64,000 nt of DNA from Stieleria neptunia (GTDB lineage Bacteria > Planctomycetota > Planctomycetia > Pirellulales > Pirellulaceae), in contig NZ_CP037423.1 of assembly GCF_007754155.1 (NCBI RefSeq), positions 9,978,938 through 10,042,937 on the forward strand, read 5' to 3'. The notes under the pieces were generated by a model. That model was not told where the DNA came from, did not search any database, and worked only from the letters and a program-made list of their open reading frames with translations. The stretch's first letter is position 1. Every line of letters begins with the position of its first letter. This document shows positions 55,653 through 64,000 of this stretch, one piece after another. The translations under genes and the position numbers were made by a program.

Positions 55653-58600
55653 ATGCCCGACCGCAACACCATCGAGACGATTTTTCTGGAGGCCGTCGAA
55701 CTGCCGGCGGACCAGCTTGCATCGTTTCTCGATCGCCGCTGCGGTGGTGATAGGGAACTGCGGGACGCGGTGATGGAGTTGATCGAAGCCGACCGGCAAG
55801 CGGGCGACGGGGCGTTTCTACGGTCTCAACTGTTCACAAAAGACAACCTCGACGAAGCCGCGACTCCGATTCCCGACAGGCCGACCAACGACGACGCGGA
55901 TCGTTTCCGGATCCTCCGTGCCTATCGCCAGGGAGGACTCGGCGAAGTGCTGCTGGCCCATGACCGACAACTCGATCGCGACGTCGCGATCAAACAAATC
56001 AAACCCCGCTGGGCCGACAGCGAGGAAGCGAGGCAGCGGTTCATTCAAGAAGCCAAGGTGACCGGTCGGCTGGAGCACCCGGGGATCGTGCCCGTCTATG
56101 CGATGGGCACCTGGCCCGATGGTCAGCACTATTACGCGATGCGTTTTATCGAAGGCGACACGATGAAAGACAGCATCGATCGCTACCATCGACCGCTGCA
56201 ACACTCCGACTCCACCGACGTCAAAGGGCTGCAACTGCGCGAGCTGTTGTCACGATTCGTCGATGTCTGCAACACGATTCAGTACGCCCACAGCAAACGC
56301 GTCCTGCACCGGGACATCAAACCGTCCAACATCATGGTCGGCCCCTATGGTGAAACACTGGTCGTCGACTGGGGGCTGGCCAAGTTGTTGGACGAACCGG
56401 TCGAAGAATCGATGACGGCCGATCTGGCCCGAGCGATTGCCAAGGGAAGCGGATCAACGCCCACACGCATCGGCGGAACCGTGGGCACGCCGCAATACAT
56501 GAGTCCCGAACAAGCCCAGGGAAAACTGGAATCCATCGGCACGCGGACGGACGTTTATTTGCTGGGCGCCACCCTGTATCAAATCCTGACCGGCCGTCCG
56601 CCGCATCAGGATGATTCGATCTCACGGTTGCTGAAAAAAATCGCCGCCGGAACGTTGACCCGGCCACGCCAGATCGCGGCCGACATCGCGCCGCCGCTGG
56701 AGTCGATCTGCTTGAAAGCGATGGCTGCCGATCCCAGCGATCGATACGCCGATCCCAACCAGATCGCCGACGACGTCCATCGCTGGATGGCCGATCAAGC
56801 GGTCTCGGTCCACAAGGATCCCGTTTCAGTTCGCGTCAATCGCTGGATGCGACGACACCGCACCGCCACCAGCACGCTCGCCGTGACGCTGCTCTTGTTG
56901 GCCATCGGCGGCGTCTTCGGTTCCATTCTGTGGAATGTGGCCAACGTGCGAAAACTGCAAGCCGAACAGGAACGGCGCAGCAAGCGACTGGAACTCGATG
57001 CCAAAGACCGACAACGGATCGCGGAGTTGCAAACCACCGCCGACGCCGCCGAAACCCTGGCGGCGATCGAGGTGTCTCGCGATCGATACACCTCGGCGCT
57101 AAACGTCTTGCGGAACACGCTGCCGGGTGTGCGATCGGAACCTCGGCTGATCGAACAAGCCGATCGAATCGAACAGCAAGCCGATCGAATCGAGTCGCTC
57201 GTCGATTTTTATGCGCTCGCCGAAACCGTCGAGCAACAAAACGTGCTGAGCCGAGACACCAAGGCCTTGCTGGCCTGCACCACCGCACTGAAACGACTCG
57301 GCATCTGGGACCGCACCGATTGGTGGACCGGGCTGCCCGATCAAGACCTCTCGGCCGAACAGATCGATCGCCTGCGATGGGATGTTTATCAACAGCTGAT
57401 GTTGATGGATGCGATGCTGGTCAAATCGATCGGAATCCGGCTGACCGGCGAGGGTCGTGTCGGCGGCCCGAGCGCGTTGCTGCGTGCCGCCGGCCGATTG
57501 CTGACGACCAATGCCGGAAAAGCCGAAGCGGAAGCGGCGCTGGTGGTCAGTGACCGCATCGATCGGTTTCGACTATCCGAATCCACACGCCTGTATCGAT
57601 CGATCGCAAACATGCGACTGGGCACGGGCGCCCGATTGCAAGGAAAGGATTTGGGGCAGACACGCAACGGCCCCGATGCGCATTCCCTGGCCGTGCTCAG
57701 CATGATCGCCGCGATCGACCCCAGTTTTAAATTGGTCTTTCGCGGCTACCAGGGTGACGACGCACTGCTCACGGCACGCGATCTGTTCGGACGCTCGGCC
57801 GCACTGAACCCGAATTATTACGGAACCCATTTGGGGCTCGGGCAAGTCCATTATTTGATCGCCCAGCGGATCAGCGATCGGCGTCCCGACGATCTGCAAT
57901 GGGAAGACCTGGCTCCGGCGCTGCATTCCTTCGGTCAGTGCATCACGTTGTTGCCCCAACGCTGCTTTGCCTTCGCCGATCGCTCCAGCATCTATCGTTG
58001 GCAGGCCCGATTGATCGCCGACGACGAACGTTACAGCCCGGCCGAACGTCGCCGCCGTGCGACCGAACGGCTGCAATGGAGTCTCGAGGACGCCCAGCGG
58101 GCGATGCAATCCTATGACGTGCATCCCTGGGTCGGATGGCAGGCCGGCCAGGCGTTCGCCGAACTGGCGCAAGTCGATCGAGCCCTACAGCTTTGGATTC
58201 AAACCGCCATCGATACCTATCCCCTGGGAGAAATCGCCGACATGCGTTTCGTCGCCGTCGACGACCTGCGGGGACGGGCAGCAATCGGCGACTGGTTGCA
58301 ACAACAACTCGCTCGACCCGAATCGCAAATTCGTTTCAACCCGGTCGACGGCTTCACCGCACTGGCCGGCGTTCGACTCAATCAAACCCGCCAGGACGAG
58401 GCGCTCGCGGCGATCGAATCGGCGCTCGACATCGATCCGAACAACCTGCACGCGCGGGCGATCCGTGGCATGATCTTGTTGCGTCAGCGCGGCTTCGAAA
58501 CGGCCGAGTCCGATTTCCAGGCCGTGTGTGATGCCGATCCCGATCATCCCCTGGGAACATTCGGCCTGGCGCAGTGCCGTGAACACGAGGGGCGATTGAG

Positions 58601-59429
58601 CGAAGCAGCGGAGATGTTTTCGATCGCAGAGCATGCCGCACTGACCGGCGAAAATCAGGCCGCGGCCGCGCTGGGACGTTGCCGCACCGCGGCCTTGTCC
58701 GGCGATCTGGCCGCTGCGGAGGCTGCCGTTGGACGCGCGATCGACCTCGAACCCGCTTGCGATCTCCTCGCCTCCGTTCGCTCCATCGCGACCGAACTGA
58801 GTCGCCGAAAACGTTCCCCAGACGTCGACGAAATGCAAATCGCCGCGTTGGAAGCGTTCATCAAATCGCTCGCCAAATTGCCTCGAGCGACCAAGATCGA
58901 CGTGATGCCCGCCGCCGACCCCCGACGATCGTCCGCGGCCTCGATCCTCAATGGCGGCTTCGAACTCGATTCGATCCGCTACTGGAACTCCATTTCCGGA
59001 GCCAAGTGGGAAACCACGCCTGGGTTTGCATCCTCCGCCCAAATCAGCCCGGAGGCCCACTCGGGAAACCGCTCGCTGCGTCTCACCGTGTCCGCTGCCG
59101 ACGGCGACGGTGTCGCCAACGCCTCGGGCCGAACCGGCCAGGAGTTTTCCGTCGTCGCCGGCCAGCGCTACCGACTCTCTTGTTGGGCCAAAGCCGAGCG
59201 ACTGGCCGCCGGTGCGATGCGAATCGTCGGTCCCGCCGGCGAGACACTGATCGAGTTCGATCCCGGCAGCTATGACTGGCGCCGGGTGGCGGCACCGTTG
59301 ATCGTGACGCAAACCGCCGACGGCCGACGCGTTGCTGCCGGTACCATCGTCCCGGTCCGGATCCAAATCGTCGCCCGCGGGGACGGGACGCTGTGGCTGG
59401 ACGATTTCATGTGCCAGAGCACGCCGTAG
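55653..59429 (+). CDS. Ser/Thr protein kinase with helical repeats and a C-terminal jelly-roll domain
   Basis: The 1258-aa protein has a Hanks-type kinase domain (~85-390): GGLGEVLLAHD, Lys114 of VAIKQIK, HRDIKPSNIMV (~219), and DWGLAKL (DWG in place of DFG, common here). A membrane segment (~408-432, LAVTLLLLAIGGVFGSILW) is followed by a coiled coil and TPR-like helical repeats to ~1080. The end (~1090-1255) is a carbohydrate-binding-type jelly roll (GGFELDSIRYWNSISG, SGNRSLRLTVSAADGDG, YDWRRVAAPL). So it joins an inner kinase with a large outer sensor. The vWA and exported proteins upstream may be partners. Confidence 0.92.
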   Translation: MPDRNTIETIFLEAVELPADQLASFLDRRCGGDRELRDAVMELIEADRQAGDGAFLRSQLFTKDNLDEAATPIPDRPTNDDADRFRILRAYRQGGLGEVLLAHDRQLDRDVAIKQIKPRWADSEEARQRFIQEAKVTGRLEHPGIVPVYAMGTWPDGQHYYAMRFIEGDTMKDSIDRYHRPLQHSDSTDVKGLQLRELLSRFVDVCNTIQYAHSKRVLHRDIKPSNIMVGPYGETLVVDWGLAKLLDEPVEESMTADLARAIAKGSGSTPTRIGGTVGTPQYMSPEQAQGKLESIGTRTDVYLLGATLYQILTGRPPHQDDSISRLLKKIAAGTLTRPRQIAADIAPPLESICLKAMAADPSDRYADPNQIADDVHRWMADQAVSVHKDPVSVRVNRWMRRHRTATSTLAVTLLLLAIGGVFGSILWNVANVRKLQAEQERRSKRLELDAKDRQRIAELQTTADAAETLAAIEVSRDRYTSALNVLRNTLPGVRSEPRLIEQADRIEQQADRIESLVDFYALAETVEQQNVLSRDTKALLACTTALKRLGIWDRTDWWTGLPDQDLSAEQIDRLRWDVYQQLMLMDAMLVKSIGIRLTGEGRVGGPSALLRAAGRLLTTNAGKAEAEAALVVSDRIDRFRLSESTRLYRSIANMRLGTGARLQGKDLGQTRNGPDAHSLAVLSMIAAIDPSFKLVFRGYQGDDALLTARDLFGRSAALNPNYYGTHLGLGQVHYLIAQRISDRRPDDLQWEDLAPALHSFGQCITLLPQRCFAFADRSSIYRWQARLIADDERYSPAERRRRATERLQWSLEDAQRAMQSYDVHPWVGWQAGQAFAELAQVDRALQLWIQTAIDTYPLGEIADMRFVAVDDLRGRAAIGDWLQQQLARPESQIRFNPVDGFTALAGVRLNQTRQDEALAAIESALDIDPNNLHARAIRGMILLRQRGFETAESDFQAVCDADPDHPLGTFGLAQCREHEGRLSEAAEMFSIAEHAALTGENQAAAALGRCRTAALSGDLAAAEAAVGRAIDLEPACDLLASVRSIATELSRRKRSPDVDEMQIAALEAFIKSLAKLPRATKIDVMPAADPRRSSAASILNGGFELDSIRYWNSISGAKWETTPGFASSAQISPEAHSGNRSLRLTVSAADGDGVANASGRTGQEFSVVAGQRYRLSCWAKAERLAAGAMRIVGPAGETLIEFDPGSYDWRRVAAPLIVTQTADGRRVAAGTIVPVRIQIVARGDGTLWLDDFMCQSTP

Positions 59430-59867: not shown

Positions 59868-60479
59868 ATGAAACGTCAAACCCTTTGCACCGTCGCCGCC
59901 GCCACCCTGTTCACCCTCGCCTTGGCGGCTTCGCCCGCTGAAGTTTCCGCCCAATCGGCCGGATCTTGGGTCGACATCGCCCGCGGACGTGTCGGAGCCG
60001 GCGCCAACGCCGACGGCATGATCCAAATCGCCAAGTCTCGCAGCAGTTCGAAAAACGGCGTCGATTTCGGCCACGGATTCGCACTCGGAGCCGGCCCCAA
60101 CGGGCTTGCCATCAGCAACTCGATCGGTGTCGGCGGCGGCCAAGCCGGAGCGGCCCACAACGTGCAACTGAACATCGGACGAGGCGGTGCCCACGTCAGC
60201 CACGGCGGAGTGGTCACGCAGGGCGGCAACCGACGCGTGGTCAGCGGCGGACAGACCGGCACATCGGGAGGTCGAGTGTACGGCGGCAGCCATTCGACCG
60301 GCTACGGACAACACACCAAAGCGTACTCCAAGAGCCAGACGCGACAGTGGGGTGGCCAGGTCTATCAAGGACAGGTCAATCAATACCGGGCCTACCAAGG
60401 CCAACCCAACGCGACCCGTTCCCGGTCGATGCCGGCCCGCGTCATCCGCGGCGGCGGGATCCGAATGTTCGGCCGCTAA
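59868..60479 (+). CDS. Small secreted Gly-rich protein
   Basis: The start at 59868 (MKRQTLCTVAAATLFTLALA) gives a signal peptide and 203 aa in all. The mature protein is rich in Gly, Ser, Gln and Asn (SHGGVVTQGGNRRVVSGGQ) with no Cys after the signal and a basic C-terminus (VIRGGGIRMFGR). No family was recognised. It resembles the product at 62002-62610 in size, signal and composition. Confidence 0.72.
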   Translation: MKRQTLCTVAAATLFTLALAASPAEVSAQSAGSWVDIARGRVGAGANADGMIQIAKSRSSSKNGVDFGHGFALGAGPNGLAISNSIGVGGGQAGAAHNVQLNIGRGGAHVSHGGVVTQGGNRRVVSGGQTGTSGGRVYGGSHSTGYGQHTKAYSKSQTRQWGGQVYQGQVNQYRAYQGQPNATRSRSMPARVIRGGGIRMFGR

Positions 60480-60702: not shown

Positions 60703-61338
60703 ATGACCCTTCGACTCTTCAGCGGCAGTGCCGCCACCCTGCTCGTCGCGTTTGCCGTCTTGGCCCAGACGCCACCTGCGGCGGCCGAGCCCGAACCGGA
60801 ACTCACCCTCCAACCCGTTCCGGCATTGCTGCGTCTGCATCTGCCCATCCTGGGTGAACAACGCGGCGTGCTGGTCGAGGCCGTCGCCGCGGAGTCGGCT
60901 GCCGCGGGCGCCGGACTCCGTGCCGGCGACGTCATCTTGGAAGCCGGTGGGCGAGCCGTCATCACAGGCGATGCACTGGAGCAGCCGGACCCGGCGTTTC
61001 CGATCGTGGTGCTGCGCCGCGGCCGCACGCAGGTGTTGCAACCGGCGGCCACGGAAAACCGGTTCTTTGATCGGATGTTCGGTCCCCCGATGCCGGGCAA
61101 TCGACGGAGCGGGACCAGCGTCAGTTCTTCGGCGATCAGTTCCGGTTCTGGCAGTCGCGCCGTTTCGGTCAGTCGCGCCGGTGACCAGATCGCGATCGAA
61201 ATGTCGTTGCCGGAACTGGCCGAGGGCCCGATCCGATTTCGAGGCACGGCGGCGGAAATCGAGCAACAACTGCGACAGAGCACGCTCGGCGAAGCGGTCA
61301 AACGCGAGGTCCGAACGGTGCTCCGTCAGTCTCGCTAG
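60703..61338 (+). CDS. Exported PDZ-domain protein
   Basis: The start at 60703 (MTLRLFSGSAATLLVAFAVL) gives a signal peptide and 211 aa. A PDZ domain follows (~45-115): LGEQRGVLVEAVAAESAAAG, AGLRAGDVILEAGGRAVITG. The C-terminal part is Ser/Arg-rich, then helical (IEQQLRQSTLGEAVKREVR). There is no protease domain, so it is a protein-binding periplasmic factor at most. CACCCTCCTGCCAGGAGGGT (60603-60622) just upstream is a hairpin. Confidence 0.82.
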   Translation: MTLRLFSGSAATLLVAFAVLAQTPPAAAEPEPELTLQPVPALLRLHLPILGEQRGVLVEAVAAESAAAGAGLRAGDVILEAGGRAVITGDALEQPDPAFPIVVLRRGRTQVLQPAATENRFFDRMFGPPMPGNRRSGTSVSSSAISSGSGSRAVSVSRAGDQIAIEMSLPELAEGPIRFRGTAAEIEQQLRQSTLGEAVKREVRTVLRQSR

Positions 61339-61880: not shown

Positions 61881-62001
61881 TTTCGAAAATCGTTCAGGGG
61901 TTTGACGGGTCGCGACGCAGGTGTCTGGTGAAGGCCGACAACACTGGCCGCCACCCACGAAACCCAGTTCTTTACCCCGCTTGTCCATCAGGAACAGACC
62001 C

Positions 62002-62610
62002 ATGAAACGCTTCGCAACCACCTTCGCCGTTGTCGCCCTCCTCGCCACCGCTGCATTCACCGGCAACGCCCACGCCCAAGTCTCTGCATCCAGCTACTCG
62101 ACCGGCGGCACCGCCGTCTCGAGTGCTTACGGCCGCGGCAACACGCGGTTGAATTCCTCGGCTTACGCCAGCGGCGGCGGCTACGCCCGATCGACGATGA
62201 CCGGCCGCGGAGTCAACGGCGGTTTCGCCAGCGGCAACAGTCGAGCCGTCTCCCACGGCGGTGTGGCGATCAGCAACGGCAACTCGTCGGCCAACGGCTG
62301 GGGTGCCCGCTCGCACTCCAATTCCCAGGCTCGCACCGTCGGCGGATTTGCCCGCAGCAACAGCAACGCGGTCGCCAACGGCAACTGGGCCAACGCCCGC
62401 TCCAACGCCGTCACCCGAACCTGGGGCACCTACGGCAGTTCGTCCTCCGAAGCGATCGACAATCGCCGGTCCACCAATCCCGTTTATCCGACCAACACGC
62501 CCAGCTACACCGGCGGCAATTACAGCAGCGGAACGACGGCAACGGTCTACCAAAACTCGACACCACGAGCGACCGTCTTCCGCAGCCGCAGCGTCCGACG
62601 CGGCTGGTGA
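62002..62610 (+). CDS. Small secreted Gly/Ser/Asn-rich protein
   Basis: The start at 62002 (MKRFATTFAVVALLATAAFT) gives a signal peptide and 202 aa. The mature part is low in complexity: many Gly-Ser-Asn runs (NGNSSANGWGARSHSNSQAR), scattered Tyr and Arg, no Cys. A basic end (VFRSRSVRRGW) resembles that of the protein at 59868-60479, so the two may be paralogous surface or matrix proteins. Function unknown. Confidence 0.72.
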   Translation: MKRFATTFAVVALLATAAFTGNAHAQVSASSYSTGGTAVSSAYGRGNTRLNSSAYASGGGYARSTMTGRGVNGGFASGNSRAVSHGGVAISNGNSSANGWGARSHSNSQARTVGGFARSNSNAVANGNWANARSNAVTRTWGTYGSSSSEAIDNRRSTNPVYPTNTPSYTGGNYSSGTTATVYQNSTPRATVFRSRSVRRGW

Positions 62611-63057: not shown

Positions 63058-63840
63058 ATGTCTGACCCCCATCCCAACACCGATCCTGCTGTGGACGCGA
63101 TCGTCGAACAAGCCCTTCGCGGTGAAGTCCCCCGTCGCGATTTTCTGCGTCGACTGGTCGTCGCCGGACTGTCTTCGGCGGCTGCGTACCAGGTCCTCGA
63201 TGAAACCACAGCGGCGGCACAATCCGGTGGCTCAGGGCGGATCACCACCTTTGCCATCGGTGAAGAAGGCAGCACGCCCAAGCCGCCGACTCAAAAACCT
63301 TCGCCGAACCCTCCGATGACGACGCTAGCGGTCGGCGAAGAGTCGACGAAGCCGCCGGCAAACCAAGTCACCACCCGCGCCGTCGGCGAGGAGTCGACCA
63401 AGCCGCCGACGCCTCAAGCCACGACCTATGCCGTCGGCGAAGAATCAACCAAACCGCCGACCCCTCGGGCCACGACCTATGCCGTCGGCGAGGAATCATC
63501 CAAACCGCCGACCCCTCGGCCCACGACCCAAGCCGTCGGCGAAGAATCAACCATGCCGCCGACGACACTGTCCTATGGATTGGGCGAAGACGGACGACGT
63601 GCGACGACGATGGCCGTGGGGGAAGAAGGCCGACCGACGCCCAAACCCACCACGACCAACTGGTCCGGCGAAGAGTCTCGGGTGACAACCCATGCGGTGG
63701 GTGAAGAATCCAACAGCGTCCCGAAAGCCACCACGCTGGCCTGGGGCGAAGAAGGCTCGATCAAGAAGCCGCAATTCAAAGTGCCCTCGAGTCCCTTCAA
63801 GAACATCCCCCGGCCGTGGAAAAACTTTCGCCGTTGGTGA
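63058..63840 (+). CDS. Multi-core graspetide (plesiocin-like) precursor
   Basis: The 260-aa protein starts at 63058 (MSDPHPNTDPAVDAIVEQAL). After a leader (~1-60) with a twin-Arg stretch (PRRDFLRRLVVAGLSSAAAY) come eleven motifs. Ten fit TTxxxGEE, at residues 63, 88, 105, 122, 139, 156, 183, 199, 210 and 225; one is degenerate (TTLSYGLGED, 169). Five (88-156) are spaced by exactly 17 residues. TTxxxxEE is the core of group 2 graspetides (plesiocin), where Thr hydroxyls are ester-linked to Glu side chains by an ATP-grasp ligase. The probable ligase gene starts 22 bp downstream. Known precursors are much shorter with fewer cores. The linkers are Pro/Thr/Lys-rich (TKPPTPRA). The end is basic (RPWKNFRRW). 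Without the ligase it would look like a low-complexity Tat-exported protein. Confidence 0.85.
   Translation: MSDPHPNTDPAVDAIVEQALRGEVPRRDFLRRLVVAGLSSAAAYQVLDETTAAAQSGGSGRITTFAIGEEGSTPKPPTQKPSPNPPMTTLAVGEESTKPPANQVTTRAVGEESTKPPTPQATTYAVGEESTKPPTPRATTYAVGEESSKPPTPRPTTQAVGEESTMPPTTLSYGLGEDGRRATTMAVGEEGRPTPKPTTTNWSGEESRVTTHAVGEESNSVPKATTLAWGEEGSIKKPQFKVPSSPFKNIPRPWKNFRRW
63316..63570 (+). repeat. 51-bp coding tandem repeat of graspetide cores
   Basis: Five consecutive 51-bp units encode TTxAVGEES followed by an eight-residue Pro-rich linker. Similarity between units is high at the DNA level (GCCGTCGGCGARGARTC in most), which suggests expansion by duplication. Confidence 0.9.
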
Positions 63841-63862
63841 TCGTCCGAGCGAAACGCAAGAC

Positions 63863-64000
63863 ATGAATGCAAGAAACATCGACTTGGTGATCGTCGGCGG
63901 TGAATCCGACCCCAACACCCGGCGGATCGTCGACCAGGCCCACCTCCGCGGCGTCGATTATTTTTTCTGGGACACCGACCGGCCGGGCGCGCGTCAGATC
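63863..64000 (+). CDS. ATP-grasp ligase, 5' end only
   Basis: The first 46 codons of a gene run off the window, starting MNARNIDLVIVGGESDPNTR and ending PGARQI. A strand-Gly-Gly-Glu-Ser-Asp-Pro start, then a helix (RRIVDQAHLRGVD) and a strand with a Asp-Thr-Asp turn (YFFWDTDRPGA), is the usual N-terminal fold of MvdC/MvdD/PsnB-type ATP-grasp ligases. It begins 22 bp after the core-repeat gene, as ligases do in graspetide clusters. The catalytic part lies beyond the window, so the call rests on fold pattern and context. Confidence 0.7.
   Translation, partial: MNARNIDLVIVGGESDPNTRRIVDQAHLRGVDYFFWDTDRPGARQI

Follow-up and report, generated by a model that had tools for sequence, protein, structure and literature searches.

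Group 2 graspetides share the core pattern TTxxxxEE. Plesiocin is tetravalent and carries two esters per unit (PMC12291112), and group 2 graspetides often occur with an NHLM-type transporter (PMC13097080). The locus described here lies at the right-hand end of a 64,000-nucleotide stretch of Stieleria neptunia DNA (the window; positions 9978938-10042937 of the single 10,975,817-base contig of this 10.98-Mb genome). It consists of a long precursor gene with ten TTxxxGEE motifs, followed by an ATP-grasp ligase gene that runs past the window end. We read the pair as encoding a many-headed, group-2-like graspetide exported by the twin-arginine translocation (Tat) pathway, within a larger gene cluster that seems to be related to secretion and occurs in Stieleria and its planctomycete relatives, and give this reading a probability of roughly 0.6. 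Graspetide biosynthesis by the gene pair has close to the best support that sequence alone can give. A Tat route is likely, and a many-headed inhibitor is a plausible product. An 18-kb segment spanning the window end (L002, whose position 1 is window position 62001) supplied the remainder of the locus, and the closest named relatives belong to Stieleria.

The precursor gene (63058..63840, + strand) translates to 260 residues which, by comparison with relatives, comprise a Tat-like leader, ten TTxxxGEE cores and one variant core on Pro-rich linkers, and a conserved tail. An earlier sequence-only reading had described this open reading frame (ORF) as holding ten motifs and one degenerate copy, with five motifs at an exact 17-residue period and a probable ATP-grasp gene start 22 bp downstream. 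Translation and motif count confirmed the ORF and its motifs, the periodic run covers residues 88 to 156, and the precursor stop codon, ending at 63840, is followed 22 bp on by a ligase gene start at 63863. In the motif search the ten motifs start at residues 63, 88, 105, 122, 139, 156, 183, 199, 210 and 225. On the + strand they are TTFAIGEE (core 1, 63244..63267), TTLAVGEE (core 2, 63319..63342, opening the run of five at period 17), TTRAVGEE (core 3, 63370..63393), TTYAVGEE (core 4, 63421..63444, and core 5, 63472..63495), TTQAVGEE (core 6, 63523..63546, closing the run), TTMAVGEE (core 7, 63604..63627), TTNWSGEE (core 8, 63652..63675), TTHAVGEE (core 9, 63685..63708) and TTLAWGEE (core 10, 63730..63753). 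Shuffling the precursor residues 20,000 times gave a mean of 0.0035 TTxxxGEE motifs and a maximum of 1. A degenerate DNA pattern for the motif matched 17 sites in the genome, 10 of them within the precursor gene, against 4 for a reversed-pattern control. A chance repeat is ruled out by these two counts. The precursor had no match in Pfam or NCBIfam. Against PDB sequences, the precursor and its relative P0049 found nothing, and the relative P0104 gave weak matches (E 0.033 or more).

Core statistics were taken from the query and 120 of the 148 proteins above threshold. These were split by their end motifs into 49 proteins that form the precursor family, defined by its C-terminal tail, 23 that start with HPFxG, 26 that end in PFGxF/Y, and 23 others. 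The eleventh copy of the query, TTLSYGLGED (residue 169; 63562..63591, + strand), was identified by motif search and family comparison. Its presence was correctly noted in the sequence-only reading, but it looks like a longer-loop variant rather than a product of decay, because the form TTLSYG(L/M)GE(E/D) is kept in 9 of the 49 family precursors. Core number is 10 in four of six close orthologs and 8 in the other two, and ranges from 3 to 11 motifs per protein in the family and from 3 to 16 across all 121 proteins. The count of ten is far above the four of plesiocin, as had been claimed, but not exceptional, since one relative reaches 16 motifs. The precursor of Stieleria tagensis (L024:5143-5961) is built of consecutive near-identical long repeat units with TTLAVGEESAKPPLTQPRDGAEDGVRPQP; these look recently expanded, unlike the diversified cores elsewhere.

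The ligase gene (63863..64000, + strand, cut by the window end; complete at L002:1863-2723) encodes 286 residues, and profile and PDB sequence matches mark the product as a graspetide-type ATP-grasp ligase. Extension of the sequence to the right of 64000 thus bore out the predicted ATP-grasp gene, whose nearest solved relatives are graspetide synthetases. PsnB, the plesiocin enzyme, was the top match among PDB sequences (3.9e-10). A profile of the ligase family gave six PDB matches, all graspetide synthetases, again with PsnB best (2.3e-22). In structural comparison PsnB came first with RimK tied, and identity to PsnB in the structural alignment was about 20%. The sequence-only reading had pointed to PsnB, MvdC and MvdD together. 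The first is the best PDB relative, but the ligase lies under the NCBIfam cut-offs of the other two (MvdC, 31.1 of 425 bits; MvdD, 26.6 of 475) and of TIGR04187 (47.4 of 350), all of them narrow models. By sequence comparison, PsnB is the nearest solved relative. The ligase alignment (A1) holds 118 of the 120 ligases listed, the short P0199 and P0235 being left out; 136 were above threshold.

Ligase and precursor occur together. The ligase was found in 14 of 117 related genomes and the precursor in the identical 14, with a TTxxxGEE ORF directly upstream of the ligase in every one (in G009 a contig end splits the precursor, with the front part on a different contig). The loci of named genomes have the same upstream ORF in 12 of 12. 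Nine loci are common to the two sets, giving 17 distinct ligase loci of the family, all 17 with a TTxxxGEE precursor just upstream. The sole ligase-free genome among the 14 of the genus (G011) also lacks the precursor and SGR1, a small protein of the surrounding cluster. A scan of 392 genomes further out in the phylum found six more distant ligases; this number and the scan's 7 of 392 are lower bounds, at most six candidates having been scored per genome. TTxxxGEE repeats lie beside five of these six ligases, in three cases on the ligase strand and in two on the opposite one; the stretch read around the sixth (L034) held no TTxxxGEE repeats. That the association recurs in distant planctomycetes argues most strongly for TTxxxGEE as the site of ligase action. 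The graspetide interpretation made from the window is supported, then, by graspetide-synthetase relatives, by the joint occurrence of genes and motifs, and by cores that fit TTxxxxEE. Absent from that interpretation were a Tat-like leader, a conserved tail, the variability of core position 3, and the surrounding gene cluster. The precursor beside one distant planctomycete ligase (L032:2471-3448, - strand) has well over 100 core-free residues between two groups of TTxxxGEE motifs.

In the proposed pathway, the ATP-grasp enzyme would, with high probability, activate the core Glu side chains with ATP and esterify them with the two Thr of each TTxxxGEE. The product would carry as many as ten bicyclic hairpins of the plesiocin type on its Pro-rich linkers, which corresponds to up to 20 water losses, or perhaps 22 with the variant core. 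The calculated average mass of the unmodified full-length precursor is 27,672.4 Da; it would fall to 27,312.1 Da with two esters in each of ten cores, and to 27,276.0 Da if the variant core were modified as well.

Selection was examined in six close orthologs from the 17 distinct loci. The ratio of nonsynonymous to synonymous differences (pN/pS) was 0.01 at the fixed core residues, 0.08 at residues 26-59, 0.17 in the last 25 residues, 0.46 at residues 1-25, and 0.49 in the linkers. Core position 3 differed in 54.6% of codon pairs, the highest value of all classes. Its pN/pS of 0.58 does not demonstrate positive selection, and the value of 1.33 at position 5 rests on very few synonymous changes. 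Across 380 cores of the 49 family precursors, positions 3, 4 and 5 had entropies of 3.48, 1.25 and 2.25 bits, respectively. Among 382 motifs counted without requiring Gly at position 6, 380 had it there. The ten cores of the query have F, L, R, Y, Y, Q, M, N, H and L at position 3, in that order. Within a precursor, the median share of distinct position-3 residues was 0.68 in the family, against 0.50 and 0.30 in the HPFxG-starting and PFGxF/Y-ending sets, respectively; as the sequences are related, a p-value for this comparison has no meaning on its own. The protease specificity of plesiocin is reportedly set by the loop residue, at core position 3. Taken together, the variable position 3, this loop specificity, and the increase of plesiocin potency with ring number (PMC13097080) led us to propose a many-headed inhibitor. 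The exported protein may, with chances somewhat short of even, act as an extracellular serine-protease inhibitor in which each head has its own position-3 specificity residue, possibly protecting the repeat proteins of the cluster.

The Tat-like signal spans residues 26-55 (63133..63222, + strand; RRDFLRRLVVAGLSSAAAYQVLDETTAAAQ). It has the pattern RRDFLRR...AxA-Q with a 15-residue uncharged stretch, and the AxA followed by Gln is the likely cleavage site. Across 31 of the 49 family precursors (alignment A2; the 31 relatives referred to below), R26, R27, R31 and G37 are invariant, and F29, L30, A43, A54 and Q55 are conserved in at least 90%. We applied a simple Tat-prediction rule rather than a published program, requiring twin Arg, hydrophobic residues, and 13 or more uncharged residues. 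The query precursor (P0001) passed, as did 38 of the 49 family precursors. In eight of the 11 failures a Lys or Arg cuts into the uncharged stretch, and in at least one (P0019) the RR lies too far in. The rule was also passed by 15 of the 23 HPFxG-type and 5 of the 23 other precursors, by 0.5-2% of shuffled N-termini, and by none of 119 ligases or the 26 PFGxF/Y-type precursors. A motif [AVSTGN]xA followed by Q or D is present in 33 of the 38 family precursors that passed. TatC is above cut-off in the genome. Curated Tat profiles weigh against this assignment. P0001 matched none at E up to 1, and matches among the 31 relatives were weak (TIGR02811 in 8, best 0.0088; TIGR01409 in 2; PF10518 in 2). 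When the leader by itself was used as a protein query, six members of this family came up among 222 candidates, which does not bear on whether unrelated Tat proteins carry it.

The second step of the pathway would probably be Tat export of the precursor by way of RRDFLRR, with a signal peptidase cutting at AxA-Q, so that the leader is lost without a dedicated peptidase-transporter. The resulting 206-residue form, beginning at Gln55, would weigh 21,928.0 Da unmodified and 21,567.7 Da after 20 water losses. None was found with Pfam among the cluster genes and eight further ORFs, which form part of the nearby ORFs. Those eight comprise a response regulator/GAF protein, an L10-like ribosomal protein, a phosphoesterase, an SRAP protein, a TrkH protein, and three without a match. 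In the titles and abstract openings of the open-licence literature, we found no report of the present system or of a Tat-exported graspetide. HPF stands near the N-terminus of the 23 HPFxG-type proteins among the 121 (P0059, P0063, P0067, P0104 and others; L031:558-1151, - strand), and the 15 of them with a Tat-like signal carry it after the HPF, a leader motif and an export signal side by side.

The conserved C-terminal tail, RPWKNFRRW (63811..63837, + strand), follows the pattern W-x-x-F/W-x-R-W in relatives. The precursor ends in FRRW in 14 of 14 genomes. Within the family, which the tail itself defines, FRRW is the ending of 31 of 49 members; the other 18 have variants of it, FGRW and WNRW among them. 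R259 and W260 are invariant in the 31 relatives, partly by construction, as these were chosen with that tail. The tail pattern has four matches in the genome, against 1 in the control; one lacks a stop, and two others terminate open frames of 30 and of 34 residues. Among the long ORFs of the genome, the precursor alone has this ending. A role as a general sorting signal of the genome was rejected, the precursor being the only long ORF among the pattern matches. SGR1 and a second small cluster protein, SGR2, end in Arg and aromatic residues, not in the tail motif of the precursor, and the three C-termini might still have a signal in common. Elsewhere among the 121 proteins, 26 have PFGxF/Y as their terminus, directly behind the cores (P0055-P0057, P0064, P0072, P0086 and others). 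This ending is a candidate natural C-terminal recognition site, given that the tetrapeptide RPFG has been proposed as the recognition element of the fuscimiditide leader, which in an engineered graspetide also functions from the C-terminus (PMC13003496).

The two conserved ends of the precursor allow other divisions of labor. The RRDFLRR segment could be a ligase-binding leader only, with any export following another route, an unlikely alternative for which the weak curated Tat profiles speak and on which a structural model also bears. Because the precursor and ligase of one relative (L028) share a frame across a 12-base gap, we folded precursor and ligase as a single chain in which Gln takes the place of the stop. 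The alignment (A3; 3 joined rows, 75 ligases, 24 precursors) is flawed: of its 24 separate precursor rows, 22 had been aligned with the ligase, leaving in effect five rows for folding the leader; the values that follow carry this flaw. The leader was ordered, forming helices at 10-20, 26-35 and 40-56, with a predicted local distance difference test score (pLDDT) of 88-94 over residues 11-50. The predicted TM-score (pTM) of 0.59 slightly exceeds our hand estimate of about 0.52-0.54 for an undocked leader. In structural comparison of this model, most rows begin only at about model residue 363-374 and end at 550, mostly the C-terminal two thirds of the ligase, and details are unreliable. Against a leader-only role, the twin Arg with F-L, the uncharged stretch and the AxA-Q together make a complete Tat-like signal, the residues at the cleavage site recur among the family precursors that pass, and the HPFxG set carries similar signals separately from its own motif. 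It is about equally improbable that the tail is the ligase recognition site, a natural follower, leaving the N-terminus for export only. The low pN/pS and invariant end residues of the tail, its absence from other long ORFs of the genome, the C-terminal leader of the engineered graspetide, and the PFGxF/Y endings of other TTxxxGEE proteins would all fit a follower. In the joined model, however, the tail is disordered although it lies right beside the ligase (mean pLDDT 44 over residues 251-260, with a four-residue helix at 258-261), as are the cores, and the Arg and aromatic endings of SGR1 and SGR2 make a role in secretion or anchoring possible. The model gives only a hint that the Tat-like residues also dock on the ligase. 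Tat chaperones hide the signals of cofactor enzymes until these are ready. By analogy, the N-terminal segment might be docking leader and Tat signal at the same residues, with the ligase doubling as a proofreading chaperone. It would keep the RR covered until cross-linking of the cores is complete, so that only finished, many-headed inhibitor is exported. We regard this as a speculative extension and rate it below either division of labor above.

Two further alternatives concern what the gene pair makes. The precursor could be a surface or matrix protein in which rings stiffen a long, Pro-rich secreted chain that works with the co-encoded Gly/Ser-rich proteins. This is the less favored but still appreciable possibility, consistent with ten cores on Pro-rich linkers, a conserved cluster, and a phylogenetic profile nearly identical with that of SGR1. 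Against it, variability focused at core position 3 fits specificity residues better than a structural repeat. Far less probable is that the ligase performs other chemistry, for example RimK-like residue addition to Glu, on a precursor that is an ordinary secreted repeat protein. The family profile matches graspetide synthetases only, and in both the family comparison and the orthologs the Thr pair is conserved as strictly as the Glu pair, a constraint that RimK-like chemistry would not impose.

The genes of the surrounding cluster lie on one strand (+) in the order kinase, SGR1, PDZ protein, SGR2, precursor, ligase, and extracytoplasmic function (ECF) sigma factor. Conservation was scored in 13 loci, the 12 named ones and the present one; two are cut upstream by contig ends, and the 6-kb flanks used miss part of the kinase. 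A Ser/Thr protein kinase with TPR repeats (55653..59429; PF00069, 4.6e-32) forms the upstream end and was seen within the flanks in 8 of the 13. SGR1 (59868..60479, 11 of 13) is a small Gly/Ser-rich protein and SGR2 (62002..62610, 9 of 13) a small Gly/Ser/Asn-rich protein, neither with a Pfam match. Between them lies a PDZ-domain protein (60703..61338, the start being the likely one; 10 of 13), with PDZ_6 at cut-off (27 bits). All three have apparent signal peptides, judged by eye from their N-termini. The ECF sigma factor (L002:2774-3346, window-equivalent 64774-65346; TIGR02999, 5.9e-60; 9 of 13) forms the downstream end. From position, kinase and sigma factor probably control the cluster, and position likewise suggests the roles of SGR1, SGR2 and the PDZ protein; SGR1 and SGR2 are possibly matrix or surface proteins. 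SGR1 is found in the same 14 genomes as the ligase and in one more, G024; in G001 about 166 kb separate it from the ligase. The SGR1 relative of G024, a genome of another genus (L052), has 45% identity and a frame with one internal stop, and that genome has neither ligase nor precursor.

TTxxxGEE arrays also occur on unrelated proteins: a tyrosinase-domain protein (P0110), two PF14343 proteins (P0044, P0080), and a PF07862 protein (P0098), PF07862 being what we take to be the Nif11-type leader family.

If our reading is correct, graspetides are not only short peptides handled by peptidase-transporters, and those of planctomycetes would be long, Tat-exported, and equipped with ten individually tuned heads, a long and many-headed relative of known bacterial protease inhibitors. 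A single graspetide synthetase of 286 residues would natively work on a precursor of more than 20 kDa, and the cores would supply variable loops that inhibitor design could readily draw on. There would also be a testable link between the maturation of ribosomally synthesized and post-translationally modified peptides (RiPPs) and Tat quality control, in a phylum with little-studied peptide chemistry. Were docking and export to share one segment, this would be a new coupling of RiPP maturation to export that uses neither leader protease nor dedicated transporter.

Among known systems, plesiocin (PsnA2/PsnB) is alike in its core pattern, its several cores per precursor, and its single ATP-grasp enzyme. 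The present precursor differs in having ten cores and a variant rather than four, a Tat-like leader, and an aromatic-Arg tail, and its locus differs in lying in a cluster of kinase, sigma factor and secreted-protein genes with no peptidase-transporter among the scanned neighbors. Graspetide groups 34 and 35, compared by description only, likewise have long precursors with repeating cross-link motifs, and corallotide (group 15) has an unusually large precursor with five repeated motifs (PMC13097080). Corallotide, unlike the present system, has KxxxD isopeptide chemistry with an oxygenase, another motif, and another taxon. The multi-core microviridin AMdnA/AMdnC shares the principle of several cores per precursor processed independently by one ligase; its cores are three and of the microviridin type, and no Tat-like leader is reported in the available portion of that paper (PMC5934393). 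The HPFxG-starting and PFGxF/Y-ending proteins have the same core motif, and five distant planctomycete ligases stand beside TTxxxGEE repeats, but these proteins have other termini and other neighbors, and some have folded domains. Set beside all of these (groups 34 and 35 again by description only), what appears to be new is the combination of group-2-like chemistry with a long precursor that has an export signal, a tail, and a gene neighborhood of its own.
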